NCBI GenBank assembly: GCA_013180565.1
Contig: QBUN01000270.1
Span: forward strand, 1 to 5,871
DNA from: Candidatus Methanophaga sp. GoMg3.2
Lineage (GTDB): Archaea; Halobacteriota; Syntropharchaeia; Alkanophagales; Methanospirareceae
Reading direction: 5' to 3'
DNA length: 5,871 nucleotides
Part shown: positions 736 to 5,871 of the stretch, piece after piece
Layout of the letters: every line of letters starts with the position of its first letter
Numbering within the stretch: the stretch's first letter is position 1
The notes under the pieces: generated by a model
What the model saw: only the letters and a program-made list of their open reading frames with translations
Told to the model about the DNA's origin: nothing
Database searches by the model: none
Program-made: the position numbers and the translations under genes

Positions 736-1659
736 ATGCTGCGAATAACATTTTTAGGAACCGGCGGCTCAACGCCTACGCCGAACAGGAATCCGTCTGC
801 GATAGCGGTGAATAGAGAAGGCGAGTTAATACTATTTGATTGTGGAGAAGGAGCGCAGCAGCAGATGATGCGTGCAAAGAGTGGCATGAAGATAACTTCC
901 ATCTTCATCTCGCATTTCCATGCCGATCATGTGCTTGGTATCCCGGGTTTATTACAGACAATGGCGTTGCAAGATAGACAAGAGCCTTTAGAGATATACG
1001 GACCCAAGCAGGTGGATAAATTCTTATACCATCTCCTTGCCCTGGGCTATGCGGGAAAGAATTTTGAAGTGAAAGCGATAGAACTGCGGCCGGGCGATGT
1101 AGTAAGAAGAGAGGGGTATGAGATAAGAGTGATAAAAACGGTGCACAATATACTAAGTATAGGATACGTGCTAGAAGAGGATATGCGACCCGGGAGGTTC
1201 AACAGAGAAAGAGCAATAGAGCTAGGCATAAAACCGGGCCCTTTATTTTCTAAGCTTCAATCAGGGCGTTCCATTCTACTGGATGGAAAAGAGATAAGAC
1301 CTGAGCAAGTCGTAGGACCACCAAGACCAGGTAGGAAAATTGTGTATACCGGAGATACGAGACCTTGTGATAGCGTAATAGAAGCGAGTGAGAACGCGGA
1401 TTTATTAATTCACGATAGCACCTTATCAGAGGAGACGAAAGAATATGCGATTAATTACATGCATTCAACGGCATTAGAAGCTGCGGAAGTGGCGAAAAAG
1501 GCATCTGTAAGAAAACTCATCTTAACACATATCAGCGCGCGATATTCTGATCCGGGCGGAGCAAGTAAATTGGAAGAAGAAGCACGGAGCATGTTTGAGA
1601 ATACCGAAGTCGCGAAAGATTTAATGACTGAGGAAGTAGGATATAAGGAAGAGGAGTGA
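736..1659 (+). CDS. rnz: Ribonuclease Z (tRNase Z), tRNA 3'-processing endonuclease
   Basis: RNase Z is a cytoplasmic zinc-dependent endonuclease that cuts precursor tRNAs just after the discriminator base, before CCA addition. The 307-residue product has the length of the short (ElaC) form and the expected order of metallo-beta-lactamase motifs. These are the N-terminal strand LGTGGSTPTPNRNPSA (7-22), D35 in LFDCGEG, zinc motif HFHADH (60-65), H137 in KTVHN, the exosite-arm region with GPLFSKLQSG (168-177), D207 in YTGDTRP, the MHST motif (H243) and H265 in LTHISARY. No key residue is missing. The family normally begins MLRITFLGTGG, so I chose the ATG at 736; an in-frame TTG at 727 would add three residues, and an AAGGT at 711-715 lies nearer to it. 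The acidic C-terminus (GYKEEE) ends at a TGA touching the 3' end of rnpB on the other strand. Confidence 0.95.
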   Translation: MLRITFLGTGGSTPTPNRNPSAIAVNREGELILFDCGEGAQQQMMRAKSGMKITSIFISHFHADHVLGIPGLLQTMALQDRQEPLEIYGPKQVDKFLYHLLALGYAGKNFEVKAIELRPGDVVRREGYEIRVIKTVHNILSIGYVLEEDMRPGRFNRERAIELGIKPGPLFSKLQSGRSILLDGKEIRPEQVVGPPRPGRKIVYTGDTRPCDSVIEASENADLLIHDSTLSEETKEYAINYMHSTALEAAEVAKKASVRKLILTHISARYSDPGGASKLEEEARSMFENTEVAKDLMTEEVGYKEEE

Positions 1660-1918
1660 GGAGAGTAAGCCCCCTTCTGTTTCCGCGGCATTTATCTTTG
1701 CGCCCTATTTTGGCTTGCACCCACGAGGTTGGTCGATTCCATCCGCAACCATACGTCTTCATCCTTACGGAATCATTACATTAGTATGGTACGGTACCGT
1801 TTCTATACCAGAGCCAAGACTCTCGCCTTATGCCCTCTCGGCATTCGTGTTCTTATGGTGGGGGGACTTTCCTCAGCCTTCTACGAACGAAGGCCGGCAG
1901 CCGCCCTTCCTCTCTCCT
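1659..1918 (-). ncRNA. rnpB: RNase P RNA (archaeal)
   Basis: This is the catalytic RNA of RNase P, which removes 5' leaders from precursor tRNAs. Read on the minus strand it shows the universal core. CR-I GAGGAAAGUCC lies at 1874-1864 and CR-V ACAGAAGGGGGCUUA at 1680-1666. They form the P4 pseudoknot, AAG-U-CCCCC against GGGGGCUU, with the conserved bulged U. P1 pairs AGGAGAG at the 5' end with CUCUCCU at the 3' end. P3 is a GCCUUC/GAAGGC hairpin (1894-1889 with 1881-1876), and P12 pairs ACCAUAC (1790-1784) with GUAUGGU (1754-1748). The CR-IV-like GUGCAAGCCAAAAUAGG lies at 1720-1704. Ends are set from P1 and are good to a few bases. About 260 nt is compact for an archaeal RNase P RNA. The 3' end touches the RNase Z stop codon. 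Small open frames in both directions across this stretch are not genes. Confidence 0.96.
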
Positions 1919-1970: not shown

Positions 1971-1989
1971 CCCGTTATCTGATAACCGG
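1971..1989 (-). terminator. Hairpin at the ftsZ stop codon, possible terminator element
   Basis: The palindrome has arms GTTATC and GATAAC around a single T, extended by two more C-G pairs beyond one C-C mismatch. It spans the TAA stop of ftsZ (1977-1975). On the minus strand it is followed by a T-rich stretch, ATATTTGCTTACTTTATTT, of the kind at which archaeal polymerase can terminate. That same stretch holds the proposed rnpB promoter, so some read-through from ftsZ into rnpB is also possible. Confidence 0.3.
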
Positions 1990-3075
1990 TATAATATCGC
2001 TGATTACCCCCTTATGCACCGGTCTTTCGTTTTGATTTATTACATTTTCACGCTTTGCATAGTCCCCGCCAAATGTCCACTTCGGCTCCACACCGGTCAT
2101 TATTGCCGATACCTTTGCCGTCCCATTGCAAGCCTCATTTATCCTCGCTCCCCATATTACATTTGCATCCTGGTCCAGTTCGTAAGTAAGTAACTCTACA
2201 ATGTCATTTGTCTCTTTCATCGTTAGGTCAGAACCACCAGTCACATGTATGAGAGCTCCTTTTGCACCCTTATAATCCGCATCTAACAGGGGATGACTGA
2301 ATGCATCTTCTACCACCGCTTCGGATTTGTTCTCCGCTTTTGACGTCTCACCTACAAGCATCACTGCAACACCGCCTGCTTCCATTACCGACTTGAGGTC
2401 CGCAAAGTCAAGATTTACCAGAGAAGGCTGTGTTATCGTCTCTGCAATACCCTGTATCGTGTCTGCAATCAAGGTATCCATGGTTTTAAACGCCTCATTC
2501 ACCGGAAGATTTCCTGCATATTTTAGCAACTTGTCGTTTTCCAGCACGATAACCGTATCGGTACACTCCCTCAACTTCTTTATCCCCTCCGCTGCTTTGT
2601 CTCTTCTTCGCCTTTCCACTTCAAAGGGAAACGAGACCATCGCAACTACGATCGCACCGGCTTCCTTCGCTATTTCTGCGATAACAGGCGCAGCCCCGGT
2701 GCCTGTTCCTCCGCCCATGCCGGCAGTGAGGAACACGAAGTTTTTTCCTTCGAATAACTCCCCTAACACTTCCCGGTCTAATTCCGCCGCCTTTCGCCCT
2801 ACATCGGGCGCGCCCCCGGATCCTAATCCGTGGGTGAGCGTTTTCCCTATCAATAGCTTCCGTTCACATTCTACCGAATCCAGGTGCAGCTTGTCAGTAT
2901 TTATAGCTATTCGATCAACGCCATCTAATCCGCCCAAATCCTCTAATCTACCCATAGAGTTGTTTCCCGCTCCACCAACGCCAACTATTGCTAACCGCGG
3001 CACTCCAAACCACTCCTCTATTTCTTCGCCCATGCCTAGCCCCTCAGAGCAATAACCTAACACTTTATCCATCAT
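1975..3075 (-). CDS. ftsZ: Cell division GTPase FtsZ, archaeal FtsZ2 type
   Basis: FtsZ is the tubulin-related GTPase that polymerises into the division ring at mid-cell. The 366-residue product has GVGGAGNNS (32-40), the INTD strand (59-62), the GTP-binding signature GGGTGTG (121-127), and the FEVERRRRDKA region (151-161). The T7 catalytic loop NLDFADLKSVM (221-231) has N221, D223 and D226 intact. The stretches INTDKLHL, TITQPSLVNLDFADL and ANVIWGARI match the archaeal FtsZ2 group as I remember it. After the fold ends near residue 330 comes a short linker and a C-terminal peptide ending SDIIPVIR, resembling the DIPxFLR-type tail that binds SepF or FtsA elsewhere. The ATG at 3075 follows GGAAGGTGG by three bases, and a second ATG at 3072 gives a more usual six-base spacing; they differ by one Met. 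The gene is divergent from the cetZ-containing operon and ends 56 bases before rnpB. Confidence 0.96.
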   Translation of the reverse strand: MMDKVLGYCSEGLGMGEEIEEWFGVPRLAIVGVGGAGNNSMGRLEDLGGLDGVDRIAINTDKLHLDSVECERKLLIGKTLTHGLGSGGAPDVGRKAAELDREVLGELFEGKNFVFLTAGMGGGTGTGAAPVIAEIAKEAGAIVVAMVSFPFEVERRRRDKAAEGIKKLRECTDTVIVLENDKLLKYAGNLPVNEAFKTMDTLIADTIQGIAETITQPSLVNLDFADLKSVMEAGGVAVMLVGETSKAENKSEAVVEDAFSHPLLDADYKGAKGALIHVTGGSDLTMKETNDIVELLTYELDQDANVIWGARINEACNGTAKVSAIMTGVEPKWTFGGDYAKRENVINQNERPVHKGVISDIIPVIR

Positions 3076-3116
3076 TTTCCACCTTCCCCTTTTCTATTCT
3101 ACTATCATCCCACATA

Positions 3117-3125
3117 CTTATAACT
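3117..3125 (-). promoter_or_regulatory. Possible proximal TATA box for ftsZ
   Basis: AGTTATAAG on the minus strand is centred on 3121. With the usual 26-base spacing this puts a transcription start near 3095 and a 5' leader of about 20 bases carrying GGAAGGTGG (3087-3079). A stronger but more distant box lies at 3148-3156. There is no experimental support. Confidence 0.35.
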
Positions 3126-3146
3126 ACCTCTTCTTAAGAAGGAGGT
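3126..3146. repeat. Near-perfect palindrome in the divergent promoter region
   Basis: CTTCTTAAGAAG (3130-3141) is a perfect 12-base palindrome. It is extended by ACCT on the left and AGGT on the right, interrupted by one extra G at 3142. It lies beside the symmetric TATA box at 3148-3156 and between the start codons of ftsZ and the plus-strand operon. That is where a dimeric repressor or activator could control both directions. Operator function is inferred from position and symmetry only. Confidence 0.4.
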
Positions 3147-3147
3147 G

Positions 3148-3156
3148 TTATATAAA
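3148..3156. promoter_or_regulatory. TATA box that could serve both directions
   Basis: TTATATAAA is the best TATA-like element in the gap and reads almost the same on both strands (TTTATATAA on the minus strand). On the plus strand it predicts a start near 3178, just ahead of the inverted repeat at 3183-3211. On the minus strand it predicts a start near 3126, beside the palindrome at 3126-3146. Which direction is used cannot be read from the sequence. Confidence 0.45.
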
Positions 3157-3182
3157 CTTTTCGGTTGCCATCCTATAATATA

Positions 3183-3211
3183 TATAGTCTTCTAGACTAG
3201 AAAAGACTATA
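3183..3211. repeat. Inverted repeat in the leader of the coiled-coil/PRC/cetZ operon
   Basis: The arms TATAGTCTT (3183-3191) and AAGACTATA (3203-3211) are perfect 9-base inverted copies. Inside them sit two CTAG tetramers (3192-3195 and 3197-3200) that can pair with each other, leaving an AA bulge. It could be an operator, since it overlaps the region between candidate TATA boxes, or a hairpin in the mRNA leader. There is no T tract after it, so a terminator is less likely. Confidence 0.45.
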
Positions 3212-3219
3212 AAGAGGAA

Positions 3220-3230
3220 TTTTAAATAAA
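3220..3230 (+). promoter_or_regulatory. Possible proximal TATA box for the plus-strand operon
   Basis: TTTTAAATAAA is preceded by the purine-rich AGAGGAA, a plausible TFB recognition element. The expected transcription start is near 3251, giving a leader of about 20 bases before the ATG at 3272. If this is the promoter in use, the inverted repeat at 3183-3211 lies just upstream of it, a position typical of activator sites. Confidence 0.35.
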
Positions 3231-3259
3231 TTAGGTGATACGATCCATAACTAATCTTT

Positions 3260-3268
3260 GGTGGAGTG
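3260..3268 (+). promoter_or_regulatory. Ribosome binding site that decides the start of the coiled-coil gene
   Basis: GGTGGAGTG carries GGTG and GGAG, both complementary to the 16S rRNA tail. It lies a few bases before the ATG at 3272 and overlaps the alternative in-frame GTG at 3266. The overlap argues that 3272, not 3266, is the true start. Confidence 0.6.
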
Positions 3269-3271
3269 AAA

Positions 3272-4168
3272 ATGGTTGAAAAGTTCAATGAGCGGGCAAA
3301 TACGATAGCAAATGAATACTGGCGGTTGAAAGAGGTAACTGCGGACAAAGCAGATGAAGCTAGATTAGCGGAAATAGAGAAGCTATTGGAAAAAGGGATA
3401 GGGGGTAAGCTACAGGAACAATTAGCGGCAGAATCGAAGACGCTAAGGAAAGAGAAGGAAGATAGAAGCAGTGCCTCTGAGAAACTAGAGGAATTGAAGA
3501 AGGAAATGACAGAGCTAACAGCGGATTTAGCCCCGAATCTCGACCTCTTTGTGGATGATTTCTTCCCTTATGACAGTGAGCACGAACCGATTTCAGAGGC
3601 GTATTTCATGGCTATTACTGATATCTTTTTTGGATCACCTCAGCCAAGTATCAAATTTAAAATAGCTGCCTTCTCTACGGAGGGAATAAAAGTTAATTCA
3701 ACTGACGAAAATTCACCTTTGACTATCCTGGCGTATGTAATAATGATAATTCAAGAGACAGCGAAGCACATGTTAGGCATGGAGAATATCATAGGTAGGT
3801 GCTGTAAGCTACTGAAACAAAATGAATATGCTTTTATTGCTTTAGGGACTTTGATTAAAGAAGGAAAGGTGCTGATGCTAAAGGAGATAAAGGAGATTTC
3901 TAAAAGGGAAGATAGGGAATATAAAGAGCTGGTAAGTAGCACATATGATAAAGAATTGAGTAATGGTGTGGCGTATTTAGTGAGCGACGAATGGGAATAT
4001 AACATGGTGCAGGAATTGAGTGGCGAATATGAAGTGACGGACTTTGGCGAATGGGTGTGGCGAGTATGCAATGTCGAAGCGAGAGGGGGGGAAAGGAAAG
4101 AGAAGGGAAAAAGTATTTCATCTCCAAATTTGGATATTCATAAGATAATAAACTTTTTAAGGAGATAG
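3272..4168 (+). CDS. Unrecognised coiled-coil protein with possible C-terminal winged helix
   Basis: I do not recognise this 298-residue protein. Residues 15-85 are almost pure Glu/Lys/Arg/Ala/Leu with heptad-like spacing and very likely form a coiled coil, hence probably a dimer. Residues 88-135 are more compact and acidic to aromatic (LDLFVDDFFPYD). Residues 150-170 are hydrophobic (LTILAYVIMII) but look like a core helix, not a clear membrane span. Residues 185-265 suggest a winged helix: helices through LGTLIKEGKVLMLKEIKEIS, a polar region, then YLVSDEW and a wing-like end YEVTDFGEWVW. The tail is basic. It has no signal peptide, nucleotide-binding motif or metal ligands. It is the first gene of a cluster with the PRC-barrel gene and cetZ, and divergent from ftsZ. 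A DNA-binding regulator of the locus or a cytoskeletal adaptor are both conceivable; neither is shown. An in-frame GTG at 3266 is the alternative start. Confidence 0.8.
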   Translation: MVEKFNERANTIANEYWRLKEVTADKADEARLAEIEKLLEKGIGGKLQEQLAAESKTLRKEKEDRSSASEKLEELKKEMTELTADLAPNLDLFVDDFFPYDSEHEPISEAYFMAITDIFFGSPQPSIKFKIAAFSTEGIKVNSTDENSPLTILAYVIMIIQETAKHMLGMENIIGRCCKLLKQNEYAFIALGTLIKEGKVLMLKEIKEISKREDREYKELVSSTYDKELSNGVAYLVSDEWEYNMVQELSGEYEVTDFGEWVWRVCNVEARGGERKEKGKSISSPNLDIHKIINFLRR

Positions 4169-4187
4169 TGCAAATAAAGAAGCGGGC

Positions 4188-4889
4188 ATGAGGAAGAAGA
4201 AAGATAAAGAGGAGAAGGAAAAGGTAATAGCTTATCTGCGATCAAGATTATTCCCCTGGAATTTCGTTTTCGAGGACGTTGAGGCAGATGCCATAGAACA
4301 TTTTGTTCCATATGCGATTCAGGTATGCGAAGGGAAGGGGATAAATAAAAAGGCAATTGGTGGCGAGGTGTTAAAAGAGGTAATTACAAGGGAAGTAAGG
4401 GAAGCAGTTAACGATTATCTATTTGATACGGGTGATAAAGAGATTATGAGGATGCATGGTAAATTCATAACTAATTACCCTTTTGCGTTCTCTCAGTGTT
4501 TGGTCTATGTGATCTTAGACCGACTTGGGCTCAATATGGGCGAAGTGTTAGATCTAAAAGCGGTTAGCGATTTATTGGGCACGGATGTAGAACGGCTAAG
4601 AGATAGGGGGGTTTTTATCAATGGCTTAATAATAAAGAACGAAAAGAATGCGTTGAAGCTGTTTGGTAAAGACATTTTAGATAGAAAGGTAATAAGCGTA
4701 GGGGGCGATTATGTAGGTCATCTGGGAGATATTATTTTTGATATAGATAAAGGGGATGTGGCTGGATTAATAATAAACCACAGAAAGGGCACGGGATTGG
4801 AAAAGAGCCAGGTATCCATGAGCGATGTGCGTTTAAATATGTATACTAAGAATATTAGTTTAAAACATTCAAATTACAATAAGAAATGA
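4188..4889 (+). CDS. PRC-barrel-like domain protein, candidate division/cytoskeleton factor
   Basis: The 233-residue product has two parts. Residues 1-155 are mostly helical and unrecognised: a Lys/Glu-rich start, an acidic segment FVFEDVEADAIEHF (27-40) and a hydrophobic patch (98-112). From about residue 159 it reads like a PRC-barrel: LFGKDILDRKVISVGG, then YVGHLGDIIFDIDKGDVAGLIIN (split by a turn near 186-190) and a closing strand VSMSDVRLNMYTKNISLK. PRC-barrels are small beta-barrels that mediate protein contacts. In haloarchaea the PRC proteins CdpB1 and CdpB2 work with SepF and FtsZ in division, but they are shorter, so this protein is at most a relative with an added domain. A stop codon at 4176-4178 leaves ATG 4188 as the only good start, although its ribosome binding site is weak. 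It lies 19 bases after the coiled-coil gene and 21 before cetZ. The PRC call rests on pattern recognition. Confidence 0.82.
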   Translation: MRKKKDKEEKEKVIAYLRSRLFPWNFVFEDVEADAIEHFVPYAIQVCEGKGINKKAIGGEVLKEVITREVREAVNDYLFDTGDKEIMRMHGKFITNYPFAFSQCLVYVILDRLGLNMGEVLDLKAVSDLLGTDVERLRDRGVFINGLIIKNEKNALKLFGKDILDRKVISVGGDYVGHLGDIIFDIDKGDVAGLIINHRKGTGLEKSQVSMSDVRLNMYTKNISLKHSNYNKK

Positions 4890-4893
4890 AAAA

Positions 4894-4903
4894 GGGGAGG
4901 GGG
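4894..4903 (+). promoter_or_regulatory. Strong ribosome binding site for cetZ
   Basis: GGGGAGGGGG ends seven bases before the cetZ ATG at 4911. It is the strongest Shine-Dalgarno match in the window. It contrasts with the weak site before the PRC-barrel gene, suggesting cetZ is translated more efficiently than its upstream neighbour. Confidence 0.7.
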
Positions 4904-4910
4904 ATATAAA

Positions 4911-5871
4911 ATGCGGATATTTGTGATAGGCTACGGGCAGGCTGGAGGAAGAGTAGCGGATTCTTTTTTAGAATTTGCTAAGCGAACGGGGCAAAATTTT
5001 GTTGCTCGTGCATTGGTCATTAATACGGCAACGTCTGATCTGATGGGACTGAAGAATATACCGATGGAAGATCGGTTGCTTATAGGTGAATCAGTAACGA
5101 AAGGGCATGGAATAGGGGCCGATAATGAATTAGGTGCGAAGGTAGCTACGGAGGAGCTTTATACCATTCAGAGTGAAATAGATGAGCGGGGGTCGTATAA
5201 GGTTGATGCTTTTTTACTAATAGCTGGTTTAGGTGGAGGGACGGGTTCTGGTGGTGCGCCTGTATTAGCAAGGCGGCTGAAGAAGTTATATGAGGAGCCA
5301 GTTTATGGACTCGGTATTCTACCATCGAAAGATGAAGGGAGTTTGTATTCCTTAAATGCTGCAAGGAGTCTGGTGACTCTGGTAAACGAAGTGGATAATC
5401 TCTTCTTGTTCGATAACGATGCGTGGAAGAAGGGCGGAGAGAGCGTAAAAGAGGCTTTTGCAGATATAAATAACGAGATAGTGAGACGATTCGGGCTTTT
5501 GTTCGGCGCAGGAGAAGCAAATGAGGTAGGGCAGATGGTGGTAGATGCAGCAGAGATAATTAACACGCTTAAAGGGGGCGGGATATCATCAATTGGCTAT
5601 GCGGCAGAAGAAATAGCAAGTGAAGGTATTCTAAAGAAGTTCTTTGGAAATAAAAAAGGAAACGTAGAAAAGTTAGATTCCGTTACAAGGATTACGTCTT
5701 TGGTTAGGCGAGCAATAGCAGGCCGATTAACGATACCATGCGATGTTTCAACAGCGGAAAAGGCGTTGATAATTGCTGCGGGACCACCAAAGGAATTGAG
5801 TAGAAAGGGTATAGAACGGTCAAAGGTGCGAATAGAAGATATGATAAGGGGGACAGAAGTAAGGGGGGGGG
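4911..5871 (+). CDS. cetZ: CetZ, tubulin-superfamily cytoskeletal GTPase (3'-truncated by the window)
   Basis: The frame is open from ATG 4911 to the right edge, 320 codons plus one base, so the C-terminus is missing. CetZ proteins polymerise with GTP, and in haloarchaea they control cell shape and motility, not division. The hallmarks are all present: MRIFVIGYGQAGGRV (1-15, against FtsZ's GGAGNN), VINTATSDLMGL (36-47), KGHGIGADNELGA (64-76), GTP signature GGGTGSG (108-114), VYGLGILP (131-138), FDNDAW (167-172), and a T7-loop region DAAEIINTLKGGG (212-224). There E215 stands where the catalytic Glu of haloarchaeal CetZ1 lies. ITSLVRRAIAGRLTIPC (261-277) and KGIERSK (299-305) are also typical. 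It ends in EVRGG, where CetZ proteins usually continue with GGDYP. From memory of family lengths, roughly 30-75 residues are missing. It is the last visible gene of the cluster. Confidence 0.96.
   Translation, partial: MRIFVIGYGQAGGRVADSFLEFAKRTGQNFVARALVINTATSDLMGLKNIPMEDRLLIGESVTKGHGIGADNELGAKVATEELYTIQSEIDERGSYKVDAFLLIAGLGGGTGSGGAPVLARRLKKLYEEPVYGLGILPSKDEGSLYSLNAARSLVTLVNEVDNLFLFDNDAWKKGGESVKEAFADINNEIVRRFGLLFGAGEANEVGQMVVDAAEIINTLKGGGISSIGYAAEEIASEGILKKFFGNKKGNVEKLDSVTRITSLVRRAIAGRLTIPCDVSTAEKALIIAAGPPKELSRKGIERSKVRIEDMIRGTEVRGG

Follow-up and report, generated by a model that had tools for sequence, protein, structure and literature searches.

A cytoskeleton locus in ANME-1 archaea: a CetZ operon with coiled-coil, PRC-barrel and predicted membrane proteins, head to head with ftsZ2

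Introduction

Two tubulin-superfamily GTPases, an FtsZ of the division type and a CetZ of the shape type, are encoded within 4 kb of each other in Candidatus Methanophaga sp. GoMg3.2, an ANME-1 (Methanophagales) archaeon whose nearest relatives in our comparisons are also Methanophagales. The sequence analyzed here, referred to as the window, comprises 5,871 nucleotides of contig QBUN01000270.1. Between the two GTPase genes lie one gene for a protein with a coiled coil (CC) and one for a PRC-barrel protein (PRC). Does this arrangement encode a dedicated cytoskeletal apparatus, and does FtsZ belong to it? The action of CetZ on cell shape is described as not yet understood in the available text of a 2023 survey of the family (PMC9856176). 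A first-pass annotation of the window had reported the following order, and all four genes are present at about the positions it gave.

1975-3075, minus strand: ftsZ2 (366 aa), divergent from the cetZ operon (TIGR00065, 380 bits against a family cut-off of 295)
3272-4168, plus strand: CC protein (298 aa), with a helical coiled coil, a mixed middle region, a winged helix, a linker and an amphipathic C-terminal helix (structure model and homologue alignment)
4188-4889, plus strand: PRC-barrel protein, long form (233 aa; PF05239, E 5e-7)
4911-5870, plus strand: cetZ, 5' 320 codons, the gene running past the window end (PF21011, PF00091)

The genes of the operon are separated by 19 nt (CC-PRC) and 21 nt (PRC-CetZ), and the divergent spacer between ftsZ2 and CC measures 190–196 nt. 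The window CetZ contains the tubulin GTPase domain (PF00091, E 4e-36) and the CetZ_C domain (PF21011, E 8e-54). Its best matches among sequences of known structure are 4b46 (377 bits, E 7e-112) and 4b45 (242 bits), which we take to be CetZ1 of Haloferax volcanii and CetZ2, respectively; the next match scores 79.5 bits.

Results and Discussion

Conservation of the CC-PRC-CetZ operon

Genome contigs were scanned with an alignment of CC, and the window proteins were placed by tblastn on the 48 loci obtained, one of which (L001) carries copies of all six window proteins at 97–100% identity. The lineage labels of the relatives are partly unreliable (L014, for example, is labelled Nitrosotalea). CC is followed by PRC in 47 of the 48 loci, the remaining one (L047) ending inside CC. 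CetZ follows PRC in 43; it does not in L007, L032, L042, L046 and L047, with L042 and L047 truncated at contig ends.

Across the phylum (392 genomes), CC was found in 55 genomes, with PRC next to it in 54 and a contig end cutting the 55th; the CC and PRC matches lie 16–63 nt apart in 46 of these 54. CetZ comes after CC-PRC in 46 of the 55, and in a 47th (G295) the contig matches in length and arrangement that of L009, which includes the start of CetZ and then ends. When four genomes with the operon at a contig end are left out (G082, G108, G127, G160), the order CC-PRC-CetZ is kept in 47 of 51 testable genomes, and CC identity falls to 42% among linked loci. Such conservation is therefore not due to chance.

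The presence of the genes is also correlated. Within the class of the nearest relative's genome (G001; 58 genomes), CC occurs in 43 genomes and CetZ in 41: both are present in 39, CC alone in 4, CetZ alone in 2 and neither in 13, an agreement in 52 of 58. Put differently, CC is missing from 13 of the 17 genomes without CetZ. The strong form of the membrane protein described below is likewise missing from these 13, four of them having weak matches (E 4e-4 to 2e-8), and a full-length match to the long-form PRC is found in 10, in five of which the PRC gene stands head to head with ftsZ2. The 13 genomes are related, so their joint absence represents few events. A search of archaeal genomes for the two unnamed proteins had been suggested as a check; it places CC and PRC beside cetZ far beyond the source genome, and they are thus neither widespread without association with cetZ or ftsZ nor confined in this arrangement to one genome.

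A membrane protein encoded after cetZ

Directly 3' of cetZ in the relatives, just past the window end, is the gene of a bitopic protein (for example L001:12803-13648), predicted to begin with a signal and to end in a transmembrane helix followed by a short basic tail. A fourth gene with both hydrophobic segments follows cetZ in 37 of 40 CC-linked loci, mostly at a spacing of -4 to 29 nt. The three exceptions are L002, where the cetZ frame is broken and the membrane gene partial; L019, where none was found; and L031, where the gene is 200 nt away and its C-terminal helix was not seen. The membrane gene also follows cetZ in 9 of 21 loci where CetZ is not next to CC, and in 22 of 30 haloarchaea-like loci, the best-scoring CetZ_C places. 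The term haloarchaea-like is our reading of the sequences and agrees with the named haloarchaeal members of the membrane-protein family, which include a protein of Haloferax larsenii.

Versions of the membrane protein from Methanophagales, Methanocellales, mixed and haloarchaea-like loci match each other in hhalign with 98–100% probability, and a longer form (L167, L169, L177, L184) with 77–97%. A profile search of the phylum detected the protein in 225 of the 392 genomes, and its placement was judged on the best 150 places listed. Among the 92 strongest matches (E <= 4e-41), 91 adjoin CetZ; in the genome of the single exception (G082), CC-PRC is cut at a contig end. The other 58 listed places divide into 30 that adjoin CetZ, 2 that do not despite a known CetZ place, and 26 without a CetZ place listed for judging. 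These comparisons indicate that the membrane protein is homologous across the phylum and paired with CetZ. Database entries name the family "hypothetical", "DUF4398" or "tetratricopeptide". Its tail ends, according to lineage, in KRGIY, WDRLG, WERL or YDKLG.

By sequence, then, the module is CC-PRC-CetZ plus the membrane protein, and the CetZ-membrane protein pair is phylum-wide; this part was understated in the first-pass annotation. A CetZ_C match is present in 281 of the 392 genomes (weak, with E above 1e-4, in 11 of them). The CetZ C-termini are nearly all PLF, PLI or SLF (L001-L048, L109-L138, L164-L186), the exceptions being L041 and L044, in which a few more residues follow PLI, and L002 with its broken frame. 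The C-terminal peptide was considered as an operon-specific docking site and ruled out.

Three genomes (G150, G179, G199) have 3–4 CetZ and several FtsZ matches each, which may reflect expansion or mixed assemblies. Distant proteins of the tubulin superfamily, large (~700–900 aa) and small (~305–335 aa), occur in several genomes (G001:C103, G003:C20, G017:C1 and others).

The PRC-barrel protein and its connection to ftsZ2

Relatives of the window (L062, L055, L058) have another, second FtsZ, and the genes after it encode SecE-like and NusG/Spt5-like proteins (the names are our reading); a conserved protein-synthesis gene context is described for ftsZ1 in the available text of PMC9871819. The match to Methanocaldococcus jannaschii FtsZ1 is 404 bits for this second FtsZ versus 280 bits for the window FtsZ. 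Since the second FtsZ has the ftsZ1 context and is closer to FtsZ1, the assignment of the window gene as FtsZ2 holds by paralogy, as judged from gene context and match score, and bears out the first-pass name.

PRC consists of a helical N-terminal domain of ~160 residues with a conserved PWNF motif, whose P and W are invariant in the homologue alignment, followed by a C-terminal PRC barrel (90 homologues; structure model pLDDT 82.7).

4662-4796, plus strand: PRC-barrel domain, residues 159-203 (Pfam; profile match to Archaeoglobus fulgidus CdpB, 8qzo, E 5e-10; structure matches)

The barrel resembles CdpB1/CdpB2 in profile and structure matches; other PRC barrels, such as those of reaction-centre H subunits, also match.

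The long-form PRC is found in a second context, at 12 places without adjoining CC or CetZ (L147-L158; the genome of L158 has a CC-PRC-CetZ operon elsewhere). At five of these it is head to head with ftsZ2 (L149, L150, L152, L154, L155). In the four loci scanned (L148, L149, L151, L158), the next two genes encode a MutS-V-like ATPase, which passes the Pfam cut-off in a single locus, and a protein with a winged helix and AAA_assoc_C, which passes it in all four. The cassette of L147-L158 lies mostly in CetZ-less genomes. The PRC sequences of L156 (G249) and L158 (G007) are identical, suggesting that one of the two assemblies contains a contig that is shared or was misbinned. In a tree of PRC sequences, the 12 second-context sequences form one branch (support 99/95) beside the CetZ-linked PRC of Methanophagales, a 13th (L159) is placed elsewhere, and the ftsZ2-linked sequences are spread over several branches. 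Positions conserved in the CetZ-linked and second-context sets, PWNF among them, are identical save one, which is conserved at 90% or more in both sets yet different. Residues marking the CetZ-linked PRC thus amount to this one position, and no CetZ-specific face can be named.

As the long-form PRC is kept where CC and CetZ are missing, it should have a role independent of them, and FtsZ2 is a reasonable partner. Because the same family stands head to head with ftsZ2 where CC and CetZ are absent, PRC is a better candidate than CC for the bridge to FtsZ2, and we infer that it is the likeliest one.

The divergent spacer of the window contains three elements.

3130-3141: 12-bp perfect palindrome CTTCTTAAGAAG, putative ftsZ2 promoter element (present, in part as variants, in an alignment of 22 spacers from the window and relatives)
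3148-3156, plus strand: TATA-box-like TTATATAAA, predicted promoter of the CC-PRC-cetZ operon
3183-3211: inverted repeat TATAGTCTT / AAGACTATA, arms 11 nt apart

The TATA-like element is exact in 20 of the 22 aligned spacers, with one substitution in L003 and L011. In the spacer alignment the inverted repeat is intact in the nearest relatives only (L001-L003) and is therefore probably not essential. For the palindrome, sequences upstream of gene starts were compared at 0–1 mismatch, related sequences with the same last 120 bases being counted once. It precedes 26 of 61 ftsZ2 starts, some of them in ftsZ2 apart from CC (exact in L192 and L193); 16 of 52 CC starts, each of which, as we read the list, lies head to head with ftsZ2; and 5 of 22 second-context PRC starts, all adjoining ftsZ2. 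It precedes none of 18 ftsZ1 or 96 cetZ starts, and at this stringency is absent before CC unlinked to ftsZ2. Because the palindrome stays with ftsZ2 when the loci separate, it is an ftsZ2 element, presumably of its promoter, common to the operon only where the genes adjoin. As an operon-specific operator it was ruled out. A shared divergent promoter was first proposed for the locus; the conserved palindrome of the spacer is ftsZ2's own.

These data bear on the strongest alternative: that the operon is a real module and the adjacency of ftsZ2 has no functional meaning, being local synteny of an RNase Z - RNase P RNA - ftsZ2 neighborhood. The rest of the window is occupied as follows.

2-700: open reading frame without a Pfam match
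727-1659: RNase Z
1654-1916, minus strand: archaeal RNase P RNA (Rfam RF00373, 193 bits)

The RNase P RNA gene is convergent with that of RNase Z, their ends overlapping by 6 bases, so that two genes for tRNA-end processing adjoin. Besides the ownership of the palindrome, the distribution of the linkage speaks for synteny: among the 43 CC-bearing genomes of the class, 21 show the head-to-head arrangement with ftsZ2, and no ftsZ was found in the flanks of 12 loci outside it (L033-L035, L037-L045), two of which have short upstream flanks. Local gene order would not explain why the long PRC is head to head with ftsZ2 at five places without CC or CetZ, or why ftsZ2 linkage recurs in several branches of the PRC tree. 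We regard this alternative as a serious one, with somewhat less than an even chance. The dedicated cytoskeleton locus of the first-pass annotation is well supported by these comparisons as CC-PRC-CetZ plus the membrane protein, and its FtsZ half, seen within one class, is weaker.

The CC protein

The many 298-residue homologues of CC start at the residue encoded at 3272; GTG at 3266 is an alternative start. A total of 105 homologues were found. The structure model (pLDDT 85) contains the coiled coil, the winged helix, a disordered linker and a cationic amphipathic C-terminal helix, so that "coiled-coil protein", the original description, is correct for the first part and incomplete for the rest.

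3788-4087, plus strand: winged-helix region of CC, residues 173-272 (structure model)
4124-4165, plus strand: amphipathic, positively charged helix at the C-terminus of CC, residues 285-298, a candidate for membrane targeting (model; helix after disordered linker)

Across 61 sequences, the tail has a median hydrophobic moment of 0.71 and a charge of +4. The modelled CC, in which a flexible linker leads into the cationic amphipathic helix at the end, looks like a peripheral membrane protein. Searches of Pfam and the PDB gave no homology of CC to FtsA, SepF or MinD, and a viral sequence collection contained no relative.

The winged-helix fold, together with the palindromes in the divergent spacer, could instead indicate a transcription regulator that acts at those sites on its own operon and on ftsZ2. 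However, the palindrome is kept near ftsZ2 when the CC operon is elsewhere and, at 0–1 mismatch, was not seen before unlinked CC. The winged helix is acidic, its recognition helix and wing leaning acidic, which argues for binding of protein rather than DNA. A regulatory role is accordingly unlikely. Still less probable is a TubR-like function, in which CC would be a DNA-binding adaptor and CetZ a segregation filament as in TubZ-TubR-tubC: the fold does resemble TubR, but RosR, MarR and PadR match equally well, the DNA-facing elements have the acidic lean just noted, no repeat array was found in the spacer (3060-3290 searched), the protein ends in a membrane-type helix, and CC is single-copy in each genome that has it and chromosomal in L040, the one complete genome among the loci. 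Finally, genes that merely have a common promoter, conserved by slow genome rearrangement, would fit the few gene-order changes within single lineages, but this is the least credible explanation, as the order spans lineages with CC identity of only 42–50% and CC, CetZ and the strong membrane-protein form are jointly missing from the 13 class genomes.

Proposed function

From the gene order and its conservation, the domain models, the co-absence and the membrane-protein homology, we infer the interactions, co-transcription, co-expression, membrane topology and division/shape link of the following model, which we favor with some reserve: the locus would encode a membrane-anchored CetZ apparatus, with PRC as the likeliest bridge to FtsZ2. 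CetZ would be the filament former. The bitopic protein is predicted to have a signal peptide, to expose ~220 residues on the outside of the cell and to cross the membrane once, through a C-terminal helix that leaves a short basic tail in the cytoplasm; this tail would hold CetZ, perhaps via the conserved PLF-like end, and so couple the filament to the envelope. CC would serve as a cytoplasmic coiled-coil/winged-helix adaptor that contacts the membrane through its amphipathic C-terminal helix. PRC, with its CdpB-related barrel, would be a shared hub, for CetZ here and for FtsZ2 division in relatives. Since the module adjoins ftsZ2 across a shared divergent spacer in many Methanophagales, joint expression is possible, and ftsZ2 and the CetZ module may be expressed together. 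A link to FtsZ2 through PRC is plausible on these grounds. In addition, H. volcanii vesicles are enriched in CetZ1, CetZ2, CetZ5, FtsZ2 and the PRC protein HVO_1964, among others (PMC10927574, in its available text), which we count in favor.

A number of observations weigh against this model. A CetZ_C match without CC is found in 230 of the 281 genomes, so CC is dispensable for CetZ in general. CetZ is apart from CC-PRC in G010, G017 and G042, and none follows PRC in G286. Where CetZ is unlinked to CC, the membrane gene is replaced by a flavoprotein-like gene of 182–183 aa in 8 of 21 loci, and no codirectional gene lies within 260 nt in 4 of 21, one of them at a contig end; in haloarchaea-like loci, it was not found in 8 of 30. 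The PLF-like end of CetZ is family-wide, haloarchaea-like loci included, and not specific to the operon. The most distant CC tails are less amphipathic (p at least 0.1 in 11 of 61). Co-presence follows lineages and so does not amount to many independent events, and named organisms stand behind only 6 of the 12 comparisons at class level or beyond. As for FtsZ2, 22 of the 43 CC-bearing class genomes have no head-to-head ftsZ2 within 1 kb, contig ends perhaps explaining some, and the conserved palindrome belongs to ftsZ2. Vesicle production is unchanged in CetZ knockouts, as stated in the available text of PMC10927574.

A broader generalization is tentative, and we would not expect it to hold in full: CetZ across Halobacteriota might work via a transmembrane protein dedicated to it, the product of the gene that follows, that links filaments to the cell surface layer, while in ANME-1 and their kin two further adaptors, one of them the PRC shared with FtsZ2, couple shape to division. 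The phylum-wide membrane protein after cetZ, haloarchaea-like genomes included, offers a candidate CetZ partner in a tractable host, and in uncultured methane oxidizers PRC is a concrete candidate for connecting tubulin relatives of the shape and division types. In these methane-eating archaea, the locus has the appearance of a cytoskeletal toolkit by which filaments inside the cell could be attached to its surface.

Comparison with known systems

In the article texts that we searched, we found neither the cluster nor the membrane partner described, and no paper treating ANME-1 together with CetZ; an earlier report elsewhere is possible. Brown and Duggin 2023 (PMC9856176) examine CetZ neighborhoods; the available text contains neither "PRC" nor "membrane protein", and "transmembrane" once (pilC2). 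As far as that text goes, it agrees with the first-pass statement that cetZ and ftsZ2 are not neighbors in haloarchaea and that PRC division proteins are encoded elsewhere. CetZ gene contexts are presented by Santana-Molina et al. 2023 (PMC9871819, Figure 6). PRC barrels in division and CdrS/ftsZ2 are treated in the available portions of PMC10936438 and PMC7439475, respectively.

The closest system is that of haloarchaeal CetZ1 (H. volcanii), a GTPase of the same family with a role, as far as the consulted sources describe it, in shape and motility. Haloarchaea-like loci share with the window's relatives the PLF-like C-terminal end and, in the 22 of 30 noted above, the same bitopic membrane gene next to cetZ; unlike the window, their genomes have no CC match.

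FtsA, SepF and MinD attach to the membrane through an amphipathic helix at the protein end. CC shares a terminal amphipathic helix with this type, as a predicted anchor only. The TubZ-TubR partition system likewise pairs a tubulin-family GTPase with a winged-helix partner; unlike it, the window has an acidic-leaning winged helix, an amphipathic tail, and PRC and membrane partners.

PRC barrels related to that of the window occur in the CdpB1/CdpB2-SepF-FtsZ division complex (8onw, 8qzo). CdpB proteins consist of PRC domains only, with no large extra domain; the window PRC departs from this in adding the ~160-residue helical domain with its PWNF motif, and in sharing an operon with CetZ. CdvA of the ESCRT division system combines a PRC barrel and a coiled coil in one protein, whereas the window encodes them in two proteins, next to a GTPase of the tubulin family, and places the barrel at the C-terminal end of its protein.

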